A stretch of 42,533 bases of DNA from Candidatus Gottesmanbacteria bacterium RIFCSPHIGHO2_02_FULL_39_14 (lineage in GTDB: Bacteria > Patescibacteriota > Microgenomatia > 2-02-FULL-39-11), in assembly GCA_001779205.1 (NCBI GenBank), contig MFJM01000014.1:33236-75768 (forward strand). The letters are read 5' to 3'. The position numbers were made by a program, and so were the translations under genes. This document shows positions 7,115 to 14,101 of this stretch, piece by piece (position 1 is the stretch's first letter; each line of letters opens with the position of its first letter). Under the pieces are notes generated by a model. The model was not told the DNA's origin. It made no database searches and worked only from the letters and a program-made list of their open reading frames with translations.

Positions 7115-7141
7115 GTTAATCTCAAATGATTTGACACAATT

Positions 7142-7150
7142 TGTTATAAT
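7142..7150 (+). promoter_or_regulatory. Extended -10 promoter of the his leader
   Basis: TG at 7142-7143, one base, then a perfect TATAAT at 7145-7150. A TTGACA at 7131-7136 is only eight bases away and cannot be the matching -35 box, so the promoter is read as an extended -10 type. Transcription should begin near 7156-7158, immediately before the structured leader. Confidence 0.65.
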
Positions 7151-7156
7151 GGAAAA

Positions 7157-7436
7157 GACAATTTAGAAAAGCGTATGCCCCGACCAACCGTCGGGGTAGA
7201 ACCGGAGTCACGATCCGGGAGCTGTCCCGCAAAATCGGGAACGGAAGTTGAACCGTAAAAATACAACAGTCGGTGTCGTCCCGAGCTACGGGACGGAGCC
7301 AACCAAAGAGTCCCGCCCTTTCTGGAGAAAGAGCGGGGAAGAAGGATGGGACCGCGGGAGGTCTTTTTTTAATGCCTCTCGTTCCTTATTCATTAGTCTA
7401 TTGGACTAGTGGGTAAAGAATGAGAGGTTTTATTTT
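7157..7436 (+). ncRNA. T-box riboswitch, predicted tRNA-His specific
   Basis: The hallmark is AGGATGGGACCGCG at 7343-7356, matching the T-box consensus AGGGTGGNACCGCG with one change. Antiterminator: AAGGA (7342-7346) pairs TCCTT (7383-7387), the seven-base bulge TGGGACC (7347-7353) holds the acceptor-reading UGGG, and GCGGGAGG (7354-7361) pairs CCTCTCGT (7375-7382, two G-U pairs). The same 7375-7398 strand alternatively forms the terminator. UGGG fits an acceptor end CCCA, and C73 is the discriminator of tRNA-His. Upstream hairpins are CCCCGAC/GTCGGGG (7178-7196), GTCCCG/CGGGAC (7278-7294) and a strong stem at 7312-7337. The only His codon triplet in the leader is CAC at 7209-7211, the candidate specifier. 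A canonical long Stem I is not clearly resolved. T-boxes raise expression when the cognate tRNA is uncharged. Confidence 0.85.
7375..7436 (+). terminator. Conditional terminator of the T-box leader
   Basis: A hairpin of about 24 pairs: 7375-7398 (beginning CCTCTCGTTC) with 7404-7427 (ending GAATGAGAGG), a five-base loop TATTG at 7399-7403, and the tail TTTTATTTT at 7428-7436. Most mismatches are G-U pairs. Its 5' strand is also the 3' strand of the antiterminator, so the two folds exclude each other. Confidence 0.85.
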
Positions 7437-7445
7437 GGAAACAAT

Positions 7446-7518
7446 GGTGGCTGTAGCTCAAAAGTAGAGCGTCCCGTTGTGGGCGGGAATGTAGCGGGAG
7501 CGTTACCCGTCAGCCACC
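7446..7518 (+). tRNA. tRNA-His (GTG), with unusual D and T loops
   Basis: A full cloverleaf can be drawn. The extra G-1 is 7446, facing the discriminator C73 at 7518, the signature of tRNA-His. Acceptor stem GTGGCTG/CAGCCAC (7447-7453 and 7511-7517), bases 8-9 TA, D stem GCTC/GAGC around loop AAAAGTA, anticodon stem TCCCG/CGGGA around loop TTGTGGG with anticodon GTG at 7479-7481, five-base variable loop ATGTA, T stem GCGGG/CCCGT. The T loop is AGCGTTA instead of the usual TTCRANY, and the D loop has a single G instead of the GG pair, so the elbow contacts are degenerate. CCA is not encoded (CCT follows C73). The gene lies inside the his transcript, downstream of the T-box terminator and three bases before the hisG ATG. 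A functional tRNA or a tRNA-like regulatory element are both possible. Confidence 0.8.
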
Positions 7519-7521
7519 CCT

Positions 7522-8394
7522 ATGAAAAAATTTAATAATGGAAATTTAAAACTGGCTATCCAAAAAGAAGGGCGATTGACGCAAGATTCGCTTGCCTTTT
7601 TACGGCAAACGGGTCTTGAATTTGAAAGTTACCAAAAGCTTCTTTATTCTTCCTGCCGGAATTTCCCTTTAGAAATTCTTTACCTTCGGGATGATGATAT
7701 TCCCAATTATGTTTCAACCGGTGTTGTAGATTTAGGTATTGCCGGTCAAAATATCCTCTCCGAGAAACGGGAGCCTGTTAAAAAACTATTAAATTTACGT
7801 TTCGGATTTTGTTCGCTGGTTATTGCCGTGCCCAAGGATTCCCCGATTAAAATATTGAGCGATCTCAATGGTAAAAGGATAGCCACATCTTATCCTAATT
7901 CTTCCAAAGTTTTCTTTAAGAAAAATAATATCCAAGCAGACTTAGTTCAAGTCAGAGGATCAGTTGAAATTACTCCCGCCATTGGCGTTGCTGATGCCAT
8001 CATCGATCTTACTTCAACCGGCAGTACGCTTATCCTTCAAGATCTTCGTGTTTTAACAAAAATTTATGATTCTGAAGCGGTTTTAGTTGCTAATAATGAT
8101 TTGTCGAAAAATAAAAAAAAATTAGTCAATAATATTATTACCCGTTTTAAAGGAGCTCTATCAGCTAAAAATTATAAATATATTAATCTTTCCGCAGAAG
8201 AAAAAATTTTACCGCGACTCAAGAAAATTATACCTGTATTAGGTTTTCAATATTTTTCATTCATTCCGCAAAAAGGGAAAGTATCAGTTACATCCGTAAT
8301 AAAAGAAGATATTTTTTGGGAAACAATTGAGAAATTAAAAATTATGGGAATCAAAAGAATTTTAGTCTTACCTATTGAAAAAATGATTATATAA
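7522..8394 (+). CDS. hisG: ATP phosphoribosyltransferase, long form
   Basis: First enzyme of histidine synthesis: ATP plus PRPP gives phosphoribosyl-ATP. At 290 residues it is the long HisG form. The catalytic domains include LAIQKEGRLTQDSL (residues 10-23), STGVVDLGIAGQNIL, RIATSYPNSSKVFF and the PRPP loop region GVADAIIDLTSTGSTL (about 152-167); a C-terminal ACT-like regulatory domain (from about 215) normally binds histidine, so no HisZ partner is needed. It is the first protein gene after the T-box and tRNA-His. The ATG is three bases after the tRNA's last base, so tRNA 3'-end processing would release a message starting only a few bases upstream of the start codon; no Shine-Dalgarno is present. 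Confidence 0.95.
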   Translation: MKKFNNGNLKLAIQKEGRLTQDSLAFLRQTGLEFESYQKLLYSSCRNFPLEILYLRDDDIPNYVSTGVVDLGIAGQNILSEKREPVKKLLNLRFGFCSLVIAVPKDSPIKILSDLNGKRIATSYPNSSKVFFKKNNIQADLVQVRGSVEITPAIGVADAIIDLTSTGSTLILQDLRVLTKIYDSEAVLVANNDLSKNKKKLVNNIITRFKGALSAKNYKYINLSAEEKILPRLKKIIPVLGFQYFSFIPQKGKVSVTSVIKEDIFWETIEKLKIMGIKRILVLPIEKMII

Positions 8395-8399
8395 AAAAA

Positions 8400-9485
8400 A
8401 TGATTAATCAACTTGTTAGAAAATCTATCCTAAAGATCGAGAAGATAAATTGGGGAAATATTCCTAATGACAAAGGAGCGCGATTATTATGGGGTGAAAA
8501 TCCAATTGCTCCTATAGGAGCGGTAAATGCCATAAGAAATGAGGCAATCCGGGTCAATTTTTATCCCAGTCCGACGAAATTAATACTGAGGAAACTACTT
8601 GCAAAATATAACAAAGTCTCTCCTGAAAATATAATCATTACCAATGGTAGCGACGAGGCAATTGAACTGATTGCTAAAGTATTTATTTCTGAGAAAGACC
8701 AAGTAATCTTTCCTGTTCCTACTTTTCCGGTTTATAAATCAGCAAGTTTGATGATGGGTGCCAAAGTAAAGACAATACCTTTAAAGAAGGATTTTTCACT
8801 TGATATTAAGAAACTTTTCAAGCTTGTTAATAATAAAACAAAGATTATCTGGATTGCCAACCCGAACAATCCTACGGGTAATATTTTATTAAACCAAACA
8901 GAAATTCAGAGTCTAACAACCAAACTTGATTGTTTATTGGTTATTGATGAATGCTATTTTGAACTTGCCCAAGTTACCGCTGCAGGACTTGTTAACAATT
9001 ATCCTAATATTGTTGTTATCCGAAGCTTTTCCAAAGTCTTCGGTTTAGCCGGTGCCCGTCTAGGCTACATTATAGCCAATAAAAAAACTGCTTCATATTT
9101 AAATCGTCTTCAGCTGGCAAACCAAGTCTTTAATGTTAATCGCTTTGCCCAAGCAGCTGCTCAGGAAATCTTGAAAAATCCAAAGATTGTGCGGCAATTA
9201 ATAAATAAATACAACCGTCAAAAACAAAACTTTGAAAAACTATTAAACCAAATCGAAAGCATTCGTGTCATACCTACGAAGACTACTTTTTGTCTCTTAA
9301 AAATAAACGAAGATATCTCCTCCACCCAATTAAAAGAGAAGCTGCAAAAAAAAGATATTTACATTAAAAATTGTAGCCTCTATCAGCTTCTCGGAGAAAA
9401 GTATGTCTATCTGGGAGTTCCCGCTGAAAAATATCAGCAGTTTGTCGTAAATGCTATTAAAAAAGTTGTAGGAGAAAAATTATGA
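8400..9485 (+). CDS. hisC: Histidinol-phosphate aminotransferase
   Basis: A 361-residue fold-type I PLP aminotransferase converting imidazole-acetol phosphate and glutamate to histidinol phosphate. Seen motifs: NGSDEAIELIAKVF (cofactor phosphate site, about residue 83), WIANPNNPTGN (about 151), VIDECYFELA (Asp contacting the PLP ring nitrogen), the Schiff-base Lys in VIRSFSKVFGLAGARLGY (about 204) with the following Arg for phosphate binding. It starts five bases after hisG and ends with a four-base overlap into hisD. Position in the operon supports HisC rather than another class I aminotransferase. Confidence 0.95.
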   Translation: MINQLVRKSILKIEKINWGNIPNDKGARLLWGENPIAPIGAVNAIRNEAIRVNFYPSPTKLILRKLLAKYNKVSPENIIITNGSDEAIELIAKVFISEKDQVIFPVPTFPVYKSASLMMGAKVKTIPLKKDFSLDIKKLFKLVNNKTKIIWIANPNNPTGNILLNQTEIQSLTTKLDCLLVIDECYFELAQVTAAGLVNNYPNIVVIRSFSKVFGLAGARLGYIIANKKTASYLNRLQLANQVFNVNRFAQAAAQEILKNPKIVRQLINKYNRQKQNFEKLLNQIESIRVIPTKTTFCLLKINEDISSTQLKEKLQKKDIYIKNCSLYQLLGEKYVYLGVPAEKYQQFVVNAIKKVVGEKL

Positions 9486-10837
9486 AAAAAGTAATAAAAG
9501 AAGAAAATATATCACTAATAATTCAATTATATGAACTTAAGACAATGAATATGAAAGATAGACAGAAAATCATTCAGAGGTCAAGAAGTGACATCAACAA
9601 AGTTAAAAGACGAGTTCTTCCAATTATTGAGGATGTTCGTTCTCGCGGTGATCGGGCAATTCTTGATTATTTGGAAAAATTTGATGGGATGAAATTGAAA
9701 CAAGAAGAACTGCGGATTTCAAATACTGAGATTGAAGAAGCCTATGCCAAAACAGATCCGCTGGTTCTTAAAATGATAAGACAACAAATTGAACTTTCGC
9801 AAAAATTTCACCGGGAGCAATTTCAAAGAATGGAACTTCAATGGGAAATAGAAACCATACCGGGAGTTAAGCTCGGACAAAAGAGAACGCCGATTGAGTC
9901 GACCGGTTTATACGTACCGGGTGGCACCGCGCCCTATCCGACGGTGATGCAGATTTTAGCTGTTCCCGCAAAACTAGCCGGAGTAAAAAGAATTATCGGT
10001 GTAACTCCGCCCCGTGGTAAAAATTATGAGGTTATTGTTGCTGCCAACGAAGCAGGAGTTGATGAAATCTATCGGATTGGAGGAGTAGCAGCAGTGGCAG
10101 CTCTTGCTTATGGTACTGAAACTATCAAACCGGTTGATAAAATTGTCGGGCCGGGAAATATCTATGTAACAGCCAGTAAAATGCTGGTTTTTGGAGATGT
10201 AGGCATTGATATGCCTGCTGGACCGTCTGAAGCCATAATTCTCGCCGATGAAGGAGCCAATCCCGCCTACTGTGCGGCTGATATACTGGCTCGTGCTGAA
10301 CATGATCCAAATGCAGCCGGAGTTCTCGTAACCTGGAGTAAAGTAGTTGCAGAAAAAACTAAAGAGGAGATTATTCGTCAATTACCCACTCTTTCAAGAT
10401 CGGTAATTATAAAACAATCTCTTGCCAGGTATAGCGCCATAATTATTACTTCAGACGAAACCGAGGCAGTCGAATTTACCAATGAATATGCTCCAGAACA
10501 CTTGGAGGTTTTAACGAAAAATCCATATAAACTTTTGCCTAAATTTACCAATGCAGGATCAATCTTTCTTGGTTATAACACGCCTGTTCCCGTAGGTGAT
10601 TATGCCTCAGGCACCAATCACGTTTTGCCAACTGGCGGTTGGGCAAAGATGTTTTCTCCGGTTGGGGTGGAAACATTTATGAAGGTTTCAGAATTCCAGT
10701 CGGTAACTAAGGAAGGTTTGGAAAGTCTCGCGCCTATTATAGATGTAATTTCAGAGGTGGAAGGACTTGATGCTCACTGGAATACTATCGAACAAAGATT
10801 ACAAAAAGGAACTAGATTATGGAAAAAACAAAGTTAG
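9482..10837 (+). CDS. hisD: Histidinol dehydrogenase
   Basis: A 451-residue Zn-dependent, NAD-linked enzyme that oxidises histidinol to histidine in two steps. Recognisable stretches: PIESTGLYVPGGTAPYPTV (about residue 139), RIGGVAAVAALAYGT, DKIVGPGNIYVTASK, DMPAGPSEAIILAD, ILARAEHDPNAAG (His-Asp metal and substrate ligands) and EYAPEHLEVL (about 339) with the catalytic Glu-His pair; GDYASGTNHVLPT carries the C-terminal ligands. Residues 1-20 precede the usual family start, and a Met at residue 21 or 23 could be the true start, but the ATG overlapping the hisC stop (ATGA) favours the longer form. The hisB gene begins 19 bases before the hisD stop. Confidence 0.96.
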   Translation: MKKVIKEENISLIIQLYELKTMNMKDRQKIIQRSRSDINKVKRRVLPIIEDVRSRGDRAILDYLEKFDGMKLKQEELRISNTEIEEAYAKTDPLVLKMIRQQIELSQKFHREQFQRMELQWEIETIPGVKLGQKRTPIESTGLYVPGGTAPYPTVMQILAVPAKLAGVKRIIGVTPPRGKNYEVIVAANEAGVDEIYRIGGVAAVAALAYGTETIKPVDKIVGPGNIYVTASKMLVFGDVGIDMPAGPSEAIILADEGANPAYCAADILARAEHDPNAAGVLVTWSKVVAEKTKEEIIRQLPTLSRSVIIKQSLARYSAIIITSDETEAVEFTNEYAPEHLEVLTKNPYKLLPKFTNAGSIFLGYNTPVPVGDYASGTNHVLPTGGWAKMFSPVGVETFMKVSEFQSVTKEGLESLAPIIDVISEVEGLDAHWNTIEQRLQKGTRLWKKQS

Positions 10838-11481
10838 GAATTATTATTAATAAAATTTCCCAAAAAGAAGTCTCCCTTACACGGGTGACTCTGGAGTCTC
10901 GTATCGATGTTTTAGTAGAAGATGCTAAAAGACGTCAGTATAAGATTAAAACCCCTAGTAAATTTTTTAATCATATGTTGACAAGTGTCGCCTCTAGAGC
11001 GTGCTTAAATTTTGACATTGTATATAAATCCACATCCGCTGAAACGCTTGATCATGTTATTGTTGAAGATTCAGGTTTAGCTCTTGGACGCGCCGTCCGT
11101 GAAATGTTAGATGCTAAACAAACTCAAGGTGTAAATGGGAGAGGTTCATATTCGGTTGCCTTCGATGAAGCACTAGTAGCAGTAACTTTGTCTTTTGACG
11201 GACGTGCTTATACATATCTAAGAGGAGAAGTCCCGGGCATTAAGTTGGAGCAGGTGGAGGACATCTTAAGTACCAACTTAAAGCAATTTTTTGAAGGATT
11301 TGCCCAGGGAGCTGGTTGTGTAATGCAAATACAATTTTTTGCAGGCAATGATAGTCATCACACTTGGGAAGCAACATTCAAGGCTTTCGGGGAAGCTCTA
11401 AGAGAATCATTATCTCCCTGTCCCTATAGAGCACTAACTACCATCGGTTTAAAAGGAACAGGAATAGAGGGGAAACAATGA
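10819..11481 (+). CDS. hisB: Imidazoleglycerol-phosphate dehydratase, divergent
   Basis: A 220-residue protein of the monofunctional IGPD family, which dehydrates imidazoleglycerol phosphate to imidazole-acetol phosphate using two Mn ions. Family landmarks: TRVTLESRI (Glu near the start), KFFNHML (residues 48-54), VEDSGLALGRAV, FDEALVAV, and a perfect HHTWEATFKAF (180-190). The first metal motif, normally HHxxED, reads HVIVED (79-84), so one metal-ligand His is Val; FFDHML is FFNHML; and the C-terminal PSTKG is replaced by TIGLKG. The gene is in frame and centrally placed in the operon, so it is expected to work, but these changes are unusual for this enzyme. Confidence 0.85.
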   Translation: MEKTKLGIIINKISQKEVSLTRVTLESRIDVLVEDAKRRQYKIKTPSKFFNHMLTSVASRACLNFDIVYKSTSAETLDHVIVEDSGLALGRAVREMLDAKQTQGVNGRGSYSVAFDEALVAVTLSFDGRAYTYLRGEVPGIKLEQVEDILSTNLKQFFEGFAQGAGCVMQIQFFAGNDSHHTWEATFKAFGEALRESLSPCPYRALTTIGLKGTGIEGKQ

Positions 11482-12131
11482 TAAAAACCTGTATTTTTGA
11501 TATGGATGGCGTCATTATTGACAGCGAGTCATTATGGGAATTTTACGAGCAAAAATTCTTACCTCAGATTATGGGAAAGAAAATTTTTGCCGGAATTAAA
11601 GATCAAATTCTGGGCAATTCAATAGAAAAAATATATGATGAAGCCTTAAGTTTTGGTTTAAATTTCGATAAAAACCAATTTAAACGAATTTATTTTCAGT
11701 ATGCCAAAATCGTTTATAAAAAATCCAAATTGACGAAAGGCATTGAAATACTTTTAAAAACACTCGGTAATAAAAATATTAAATTAGGGCTGGTCACTGT
11801 CTCCAATAAAAAGTGGATTGATATTGTCTTATCCAAATTTAAACTGAAAAATCCGTTTCACTATATCTTGTCTTTAGATAGTGAAAAAGTAAGACCTAAA
11901 CCGTTTCCTGATGGATATCAAAAGGCCATGAAAGCGCTTAAATCAGCCTCTTTTGAAACCATTATCATCGAAGATTCTCAAAAAGGTATCCAGGCAGCCA
12001 AAACAAGCGGAGCATTAACGATATGCTATCTCGAACATTTGCCTAAAAGTTATTTACCTCAAGGGGCAGATATCTATGTAAAAAATGTTAAGGAACTAAC
12101 AGATAAAATAGAAAAACTAGCCTTTCTATGA
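11478..12131 (+). CDS. HAD-superfamily phosphatase, probable histidinol-phosphatase
   Basis: A 217-residue haloacid dehalogenase-like hydrolase. Motif I is CIFDMDGVIID (nucleophile Asp8, acid-base Asp10), motif II is LGLVTVSN (about residue 104), motif III Lys lies in EKVRPKPFPDGY, and motif IV is IIIEDSQKGIQAAK. Residues 15-85 form a helical cap as in subfamily I phosphatases and beta-phosphoglucomutase. Its four-base overlaps with both hisB and hisH, and the absence of any other histidinol-phosphatase in the operon, point to dephosphorylation of histidinol phosphate. That function is inferred from context; the superfamily is clear. Confidence 0.8.
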   Translation: MIKTCIFDMDGVIIDSESLWEFYEQKFLPQIMGKKIFAGIKDQILGNSIEKIYDEALSFGLNFDKNQFKRIYFQYAKIVYKKSKLTKGIEILLKTLGNKNIKLGLVTVSNKKWIDIVLSKFKLKNPFHYILSLDSEKVRPKPFPDGYQKAMKALKSASFETIIIEDSQKGIQAAKTSGALTICYLEHLPKSYLPQGADIYVKNVKELTDKIEKLAFL

Positions 12132-12739
12132 TTACTATTATTGATTACGGTATAAGTAATATTGGCAGTGTAGCCAACGCTTTAAATAAACTGGGATTTT
12201 TTTTCAAAATCTCTGCTGATCCGCTGGTTCTCAGGCAATCAACTGTTCTCATTCTTCCCGGTGTTGGTCAGGCTGCCACAGGCATGAGAAATCTTAAAAA
12301 TAGAGGACTTGATAAAGAAATTATCAAACAAATTAATCAGGGAAAATCTTTTTTAGGCATCTGTTTAGGCATGCAACTATTATTTGATTTCAGCCAAGAA
12401 GGTAATGTCGATTGTTTAGGAATACTAAAAGGTGAAGTAAAGAGATTCAAGTTAGAAAGAAAAATACCCCAGATAGGCTGGAATCAAGTTAAATTTGTTA
12501 ATAAAAAAAATAAAAAACAATTTAAAGAAATTCCCGAAAACAGTTATTTTTATTTTGTTAATAGTTATTATTGTGTACCGGAAGATAAATCAATAGTTGC
12601 AGGAGTAAGTGAATACGGTGAAACATTTGCTAGTGTAGTAGTAAAAAATAATATTCTGGCAACCCAATTCCATCCCGAAAAAAGCGGTGAATCAGGTTTT
12701 CAATTAATTAGAAATTTTATCAACATATCACCATGTTAA
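12128..12739 (+). CDS. hisH: Imidazole glycerol phosphate synthase, glutaminase subunit
   Basis: A 203-residue class I glutamine amidotransferase. It supplies ammonia from glutamine to HisF. Seen: [18 protein letters not shown] at the N-terminus, the oxyanion region [14 protein letters not shown], the nucleophile Cys in [12 protein letters not shown] (about residue 80), and the His-Glu pair in TQFHPEKSG (about 181-186). Length and motif spacing are normal. It overlaps the phosphatase gene by four bases and hisF by seven, matching the tight HisH-HisF complex. Confidence 0.95.
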
Positions 12740-13491
12740 CTAAACGAATAATTCCCTGCCTTGATATGACACAGGGTAAAGTTGTAAAAGGCATTCAGTT
12801 TGTAAAGTTTCGGGATGCGGGAAATCCGGTAGTATTAGCTGAAAAATACGATGCTGATGGTGCGGATGAACTGGTATTCTTGGATATTACAGCTACCGTC
12901 GAAAATAGGGATATTCTTATTGATGTAGTTAGAAAAACAGCAGAAAAAGTCATTATCCCTTTTTCAGTTGGTGGAGGTATTCGTAGTAAAGATGATATGA
13001 GGCAAATTCTACGAGCCGGAGCTGACAAAGTTTCAGTCAATACCGGTGCATTTAAAATTCCTTCTCTTATTTCAGAATGTGCCAATGCTTTTGGTAATCA
13101 ATGTGTAGTTTTATCTATGGATGTAAGAAAAATTACTCAAAATAGATGGAATGTTTTTATTAATGGAGGAAGAACTGATACCGGTATCTCAGCTATTGAC
13201 TGGGCGGAAAAAGCAGTCAATCTTGGCGCAGGAGAAATTTTATTAACCAGTATAGATAGAGATGGCACAAAAAAAGGTTATGATCTCGAGCTAACGAAAG
13301 CTGTCTCAAAAAGTGTAAATGTTCCCGTTATAGCATCTGGCGGAGCCGGAAAACTTGAAGATTTTTCCGATGTTTTTACAAAAGGAAAGGCAGATGCGGC
13401 GTTGGCTGCTTCTTTATTCCACTTTGGAGAGCTGAAAATAAAAGATGTTAAAGGTTTTCTTCTGTCAAAAAATATTCCTATAAGGAATTAA
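12733..13491 (+). CDS. hisF: Imidazole glycerol phosphate synthase, cyclase subunit
   Basis: A 252-residue (beta-alpha)8 barrel. The two catalytic aspartates are in place: Asp11 in RIIPCLDM and Asp130 in VVLSMDV. Phosphate-binding loops are FSVGGGIRS (about 78-86) and [13 protein letters not shown] (near residue 200). It uses ammonia from HisH to make imidazoleglycerol phosphate and AICAR from PRFAR. HisA, the sister barrel that makes PRFAR, is not in this operon. This protein reads as ordinary HisF, so whether it also isomerises ProFAR is an open question. Confidence 0.95.
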
Positions 13492-13493
13492 AT

Positions 13494-13787
13494 ATGATTA
13501 ATCTTATACCTGCTATCATTCAAGATTTTATAAGCGGTGAGGTTTTAATGCTTGGCTTTATGAATAAAGAAGCTTTAGCCAGAACTAAAAAAACCGGCTG
13601 GGTCTATTTTTGGAGCAGAAGCAAAAAACGATTATGGATGAAGGGTGAGATTTCCGGAAATAAGTTAAGAGTTAAAGAAATATATTCTGATTGTGATAAA
13701 GACGCGATTTTGATCAAGGTTAAGTTAGTAGGGAATATCGTTTGTCATACAGGAAAAAAGTCCTGCTTTAATAACTTGATAACTTAA
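13494..13787 (+). CDS. hisI: Phosphoribosyl-AMP cyclohydrolase
   Basis: A 97-residue stand-alone PR-AMP cyclohydrolase, opening the adenine ring in the third step. The conserved pieces are [11 protein letters not shown] (residues 19-29), [19 protein letters not shown], the metal-binding SDCDKDAIL (about 66-74) and CHTGKKSCF near the C-terminus, with the two Zn-binding Cys. The next gene, hisE, is separate, so the fused HisIE arrangement is not used. It begins two bases after hisF. Confidence 0.95.
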
Positions 13788-13789
13788 AT

Positions 13790-14101
13790 ATGACTCTCAA
13801 TACGCTTTATCAAAAAATTCGTCAGCGTCAGAAAACTTTGCCTGGAAATTCCTACGTTGCCTCTCTTTTTCTTGCCGGCAGGGATCGTATTATTCAGAAA
13901 GTTGGCGAAGAAGCAAGCGAAGTCATTATTGCTGCTAAAAATAATAATAAAAAGCAAATTATTTCCGAAGTTGCCGATTTATGGTTTCATTTACTTGTCT
14001 TGTTGGTTGATAATAAAATAACCATTAAGGATATTATTTTAGAGTTGACTAAAAGAAAAAAAATAAACCCAGATGAAAATAGTAATCGGCGACCTGACTG
14101 A
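13790..14101 (+). CDS. hisE: Phosphoribosyl-ATP pyrophosphatase
   Basis: A 103-residue all-helical MazG-like protein that hydrolyses PR-ATP to PR-AMP and pyrophosphate. Seen: TLYQKIRQRQKTLPGNSYVASL at the start, the metal-binding GEEASEVIIAAKN (about residues 44-56) and SEVADLWFHLLVLL (about 64-77), whose Glu/Asp residues chelate Mg. The C-terminal end, KKINPDENSNRRPD, runs past a macro-domain-like start codon at 14073 and may have been altered by a rearrangement there. It is the last gene of the his operon. Confidence 0.93.
   Translation: MTLNTLYQKIRQRQKTLPGNSYVASLFLAGRDRIIQKVGEEASEVIIAAKNNNKKQIISEVADLWFHLLVLLVDNKITIKDIILELTKRKKINPDENSNRRPD

Follow-up and report, generated by a model that had tools for sequence, protein, structure and literature searches.

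A predicted histidine-sensing T-box riboswitch with putative tandem terminators upstream of a tRNA-His gene and the his operon in a Candidatus Gottesmanbacteria genome

Introduction

T-boxes are known as sensors of tRNA made elsewhere. The locus described here, in a Ca. Gottesmanbacteria (Microgenomates, CPR) genome, raises the question of whether the leader of a histidine operon is such a sensor, and what to make of a gene for the very tRNA it would read lying between the leader and the first enzyme gene. The window (the whole stretch of DNA analyzed) is 42,533 nt long; coordinates below are positions within it. A first-pass annotation had placed a T-box riboswitch controlling a histidine operon at 7157–7436, in a probable CPR bacterium. 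Both operon and host are borne out, the operon by a run of enzyme genes at 7522–14101:

7522..8394, + strand: hisG (TIGR00070, 191 bits), start codon 3 nt after C73 of the upstream tRNA gene
8400..14101, + strand: hisC, hisD, hisB, HAD phosphatase, hisH, hisF, hisI, hisE (Pfam, NCBIfam)

The nearest HisG is that of Ca. Gottesmanbacteria RBG_16_37_8 (82% identity). The host genome (1.44 Mb) is 85.5% complete. The operon includes hisF and lacks hisA; a search of the incomplete genome revealed no further full-length protein of the HisA/HisF family.

The leader and its fold

The leader has a His (CAC) specifier and a UGGG site for the tRNA end, upstream of the his operon. Its parts, in order, are:

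7131..7150, + strand: putative promoter, TTGACA-N8-TATAAT (from sequence; the 8-nt spacing recurs in his leaders of the Gottesmanbacteria-like family)
7202..7218, + strand: short Stem I hairpin, CCGGA-GUCACGA-UCCGG, with CAC (7209–7211) in the 7-nt apical loop and a 3-bp base helix (AGC/GCU type) further out (covariation)
7225..7240, + strand: Stem II hairpin with an A-rich loop (92% paired, 77 double changes)
7241..7267, + strand: Stem IIA/B-type pseudoknot, ACGG/CCGU and GUUG/CAAC (88% and 84% paired; 12 and 27 double changes)
7269..7303, + strand: further stem GUCGG.../...CC-AC, before Stem III (inner helix 88% paired, 29 double changes)
7311..7338, + strand: Stem III hairpin (75% paired, 76 double changes; one slid control equally high)
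7342..7387, + strand: antiterminator, with helices A1 (7342–7346/7383–7387) and A2 (7354–7361/7375–7382) and bulge UGGGACC (7347–7353) (sequence; 3' strand in at least 42 of 48 leaders; RF00230)

The hallmark reported at 7343–7356 is there letter by letter (AGGATGGGACCGCG), giving the T-box sequence with its UGGN bulge as AGGAUGGGACCGCG; the antiterminator pairings given above, also proposed in the first-pass annotation, hold in the same way. CAC at 7209–7211 had been called the only His codon triplet of the leader, and there is indeed no other CAC or CAT within 7157–7342. It is complementary to the GUG anticodon of tRNA-His, and UGGG is complementary to C73 of the same tRNA.

For covariation, 38 leaders drawn from many families were scored for paired cells and double changes, against slid versions of the same helices. 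The helices covary, so the outcome that would have refuted the first-pass reading was not seen, and the slid versions score far lower except for Stem III. For the specifier hairpin the figures are 97% paired and 45 double changes, vs. 29–46% paired when slid; the base helix occurs as AGC/GCU, UCC/GGA, UGC/GCA, and GGC/GCC. Stem I had been suspected of being short or divergent: it totals about 8 bp (3-bp base plus 5-bp hairpin), with the codon in the 7-nt apical loop GUCACGA. Stem II and the IIA/B pseudoknot of the T-box class are present by the same measure; the register of Stem III is variable or uncertain, one slid control having reached its score.

The Rfam T-box model (RF00230) aligns end to end at 7137–7389, covering all 219 model positions and with every element in its expected order; the score is 27.1 bits (E 3e-4). 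This is under the gathering cut-off of 93 bits, which counts against the identification; his leaders of relatives reach up to 45.8 bits. The cut-off is a search threshold rather than a mechanistic feature, and much of the shortfall is probably due to the absence of a long Stem I. There are also no expression, binding, or termination data. A resemblance of 7200–7240 to a cobalamin riboswitch was rejected, no such family being among the Rfam matches at E ≤ 10; miRNA and other Rfam matches in the region are weak and mostly to the distal terminator hairpin.

Regulation by a His leader peptide was also considered. Other CPR his operons (L040, L048, L049, L060) do carry a HisHis leader peptide and an attenuator-like hairpin, without a T-box, but in the window leader CAC occurs only once and no peptide of this type is encoded, and its T-box parts covary; for this locus attenuation of that kind is ruled out as scarcely conceivable.

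The T-box at 7157–7436 is real, and the proposal that it senses histidine through tRNA-His stands, on the RF00230 match, the CAC specifier, and the match of UGGG to C73. As far as can be judged from sequence, the element works like a T-box: the mechanistic features examined are met, the Rfam cut-off is not, and the response to tRNA is inferred. The full reading, of a transcriptional, His-sensing riboswitch of a short-Stem-I class with tandem terminators, which controls a gene for its own ligand, has a probability of roughly 0.8 in our estimate, in the absence of biochemical data.

The promoter-like TTGACA-N8-TATAAT, with its odd 8-nt spacing, is kept through the Gottesmanbacteria-like family (his leaders L035, L036, L039, L041, L055, L057, L058, and L059, besides the window); most his leaders of other families have a spacing of 16–18 nt.

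Distribution

A 15-mer pattern, AGGRTGGGACCGCGG, is found in 46 of 374 genomes of the class, vs. one match for the reversed control pattern; because of this difference, and because the helices covary in 38 leaders, the T-box pattern is more than chance. A second, phylum-wide draw gave three matches outside the class. All leaders but one, which is incomplete, carry the specifier sequence GUCACG 116–184 nt upstream of the T-box. The presence of a T-box in a CPR genome had been flagged as notable beforehand. The presence holds, but T-boxes are not rare in this class; yet a literature search found no paper joining T-boxes with CPR or Patescibacteria.

The same genome has three further T-box leaders, upstream of trpE (L001), a SerB-like phosphatase gene (L002), and the ornithine carbamoyltransferase gene (L003). 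In the last, an argF leader, the loop is the same except that it holds an Arg codon (GUCGCGA), for which the genome encodes a matching tRNA-Arg(GCG). His T-boxes are also found upstream of genes that are, judging by translations only, hisS-like (L155, L160, L171, L179) and M20-peptidase-like (L146, L152, L154, L181, L183).

Predicted tandem terminators

The first-pass annotation had described one terminator competing with the antiterminator for a shared strand. That hairpin (T2) is as described, and antiterminator and terminator are mutually exclusive, with the common strand (7375–7387) kept in relatives; a second hairpin (T1), with seven U residues after it, was missed:

7348..7370, + strand: putative first terminator T1, GGGACC-GCGGGA-GGUCUU and U-run, its 5' arm being the tRNA-binding UGGG bulge (43 of 46 informative leaders; −7.4 kcal/mol)
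7374..7436, + strand: second terminator T2, a long hairpin followed by UUUUAUUUU, which takes the antiterminator 3' strand (about −26 kcal/mol for 7374–7428; 41 of 48 leaders)

T1 lies between the T-box bulge and the antiterminator 3' strand, inside the antiterminator loop. Its consensus is GGGACC-GCGGGA-GGUCYU followed by U5–9; some leaders have a second, 8-bp register (GGGACCGC/GCGGUCUU). In several leaders the antiterminator 3' strand is set apart from T1 by inserts of 20–130 nt, which argues that T1 is a separate decision. Either hairpin can also occur without the other: T1 is the sole terminator in L151 and L159, where the antiterminator strand and T2 have been lost, and in L161, L171, and L181, T1 or its U-run has disappeared and only T2 remains. 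Since T1 is complete before the antiterminator 3' strand, and given these inserts and single-terminator leaders, two successive checkpoints are inferred, the first of them putatively blocked by the tRNA end itself.

T1 could instead be a hairpin that hides the UGGG site or pauses polymerase. At 6 bp in most leaders, and −7.4 kcal/mol in the window, it is short for a terminator and could act as a pause site. A role of that kind would leave the run of five to nine U residues in 43 of 46 leaders, the 8-bp stems, and the retention of T1 alone in L151 and L159 to be explained, and is rather unlikely.

Among 89 other T-boxes of the class, 18 have a hairpin and U-run upstream of the T-box, vs. 0.2 expected by shuffling, the trpE leader of the same genome included; tandem terminators may therefore be general in the class.

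A tRNA-His gene behind the switch

The coordinates given in the first-pass annotation are correct, but it ended at 7436 and so also missed the gene that follows:

7446..7518, + strand: tRNA-His (GUG) gene, with G-1 at 7446, C73 at 7518, and a variant elbow (D loop AAAAGUA, T loop AGCGUUA) (RF00005, 45.9 bits; ARAGORN; 22 of 22 pairs intact)

It begins 10 nt past the T2 U-run, and 3 nt separate its end from hisG. By the tRNA-His model, a tRNA-His gene is found downstream of the His T-box at 23 of 48 loci, in eight families, upstream of hisG but also of non-his genes; in members of families f1, f8, f18, and f21 it starts directly at the T2 U-run. All copies have G-1:C73, the GUG anticodon, and 21–22 of 22 pairs. 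About half of the His T-boxes lack a downstream tRNA, so it is not essential to the switch. Eighteen of the 23 genomes with a T-box-linked copy have a further tRNA-His elsewhere, and the other five are ~81–94% complete; several of the tRNA-bearing genomes, the window's own included (85.5%), are incomplete, which limits these copy counts. Most members of the same family without hisG have a single, canonical tRNA-His (pattern search).

The non-canonical elbow (A18 in the D loop; T loop AGC[GA]TTA) is shared by the window copy with L173, L174, L205, L206, L208, L210, L213, and L221. G18 is replaced by A together with U55 by G, and in most copies U54-A58 becomes A54-U58; because positions 18 and 55 change together, the elbow seems rebuilt, not lost. 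It might nevertheless be asked whether the operon copy is a pseudo-tRNA, a specialized T-box ligand kept out of translation. Both loops of the window copy are non-canonical while its sister species has canonical ones, short-Stem-I T-boxes do not need the elbow (PMC7583486), and tRNAOther of B. cereus provides a precedent (PMC3399842). The same variant (AAAAGUA/AGCRUUA), however, is in the only strong tRNA-His match of other genomes such as G016 (100% complete), G116, G142, and G233, where translation must use it, and the paired change at 18 and 55 again speaks for rebuilding. The pseudo-tRNA reading is improbable and was dropped once the elbow had been found in sole tRNA-His genes elsewhere. 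Stems and identity elements of the window copy are intact, and by sequence it is probably a working tRNA that looks translation-competent.

A parallel arrangement is found for tyrosine. In L233, L258, L287, L315, and L326 a T-box is followed within 75–134 nt by tRNA-Tyr. These are UGGU T-boxes, as is L254, with its tRNA-Tyr 607 nt away; all six have an extra terminator hairpin about 40–70 nt upstream of the T-box. A similar protein follows in L233, L287, and L315, without a convincing Pfam match in the two fragments tested. Among the genomes with this arrangement, another tRNA-Tyr is present in G068 and G110; none was found by pattern search in G056 or G028.

The tRNA-His gene could still be without regulatory meaning: a passenger behind an ordinary His T-box, or a processing site at which RNase P and RNase Z free the leader and the hisG mRNA. 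It lies anywhere from 3 to about 60 nt before hisG, L034 and L037 have T-boxes with no tRNA, and L169 has only a remnant, all of which would suit a passenger. A chance companion would not be expected to recur with its T-box in eight families, before unrelated genes, and again for Tyr, nor would the tRNAs found be only cognate ones; we regard this explanation as unlikely, though it keeps some weight. A literature search for T-box-driven tRNA genes found none, with the two main T-box surveys (PMC2650889, PMC2271356) lying outside the search.

Proposed mechanism

In the mechanism favored here, tRNA-His would be held by two pairings, of its GUG anticodon with the CAC loop and, in the uncharged state, of its free 3' end (CCCA) with UGGG; this binding, and its effect on both terminators, are inferred. 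Polymerase would meet T1 first, formed by the UGGG bulge and the following GGUCY and complete before the antiterminator 3' half exists, so that T1 could be blocked only by the bound tRNA end itself. The antiterminator would then form around the bound end, blocking T2. The read-through transcript would begin with tRNA-His and continue into the his enzymes, and would presumably be cut to release the tRNA. Empty tRNA-His would thus switch on the making of histidine together with a tRNA-His gene (in most cases an additional copy), in a positive loop on the sensor's own ligand, and starvation would raise enzymes and tRNA together. What is gained by more tRNA in starvation is a guess: the positive loop might sharpen the response.

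In a wider reading, of a T-box class in Microgenomates, the tRNA acceptor end would be a direct antiterminator at a first terminator built from UGGG, before any antiterminator exists, and read-through would make more tRNA: a self-reinforcing, doubly gated His circuit, with a parallel in the T-box-driven tRNA-Tyr gene. We offer this broader picture tentatively, at a little short of even odds.

Comparison with known systems

The classical transcriptional T-box (RF00230; B. subtilis, glyQS type) shares with the window element the T-box sequence, a UGGN bulge matching the discriminator base, a specifier codon, the pseudoknot, and an antiterminator opposed to a terminator. It differs from the window element, in which Stem I is short, without the elbow-binding tip, and has the specifier in its apical loop, and which adds a terminator (T1) arising from the UGGG bulge and a tRNA gene in the operon. 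A codon in the apical loop of a short Stem I is already known (PMC7583486), from the ileS T-boxes of Actinobacteria (Mycobacterium, Nocardia; PMC7583486, PMC3896937). Those regulate translation, whereas the window element has intrinsic transcription terminators; a translational (antisequestrator) platform is absent, with two hairpins with U-runs in the leader and the tRNA gene between these and the first ORF.

The T-box proposed for a his operon of Corynebacterium glutamicum (PMC3896937) likewise has a His specifier and UGGN before his genes, but stems II and III are missing from it, its tRNA-end site is UGGA, its specifier sits in a bulge, and its status was considered doubtful; the window element has all parts. 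In B. cereus, tRNAOther (PMC3399842) is also a tRNA tied to the control of a T-box gene. It is outside translation, and there is no report that the T-box it acts on also drives its transcription, in contrast to the window tRNA-His, which looks translation-competent.

Implications

These results show that RNA regulation by tRNA sensing is a common feature of a large CPR branch in which regulation has received little study. T1 provides a testable case of a tRNA end set against a terminator without an antiterminator helix. The switch appears to have under its control a gene for the tRNA it reads, and this holds in several lineages and for two amino acids or more; tRNA supply itself would then come under starvation control.
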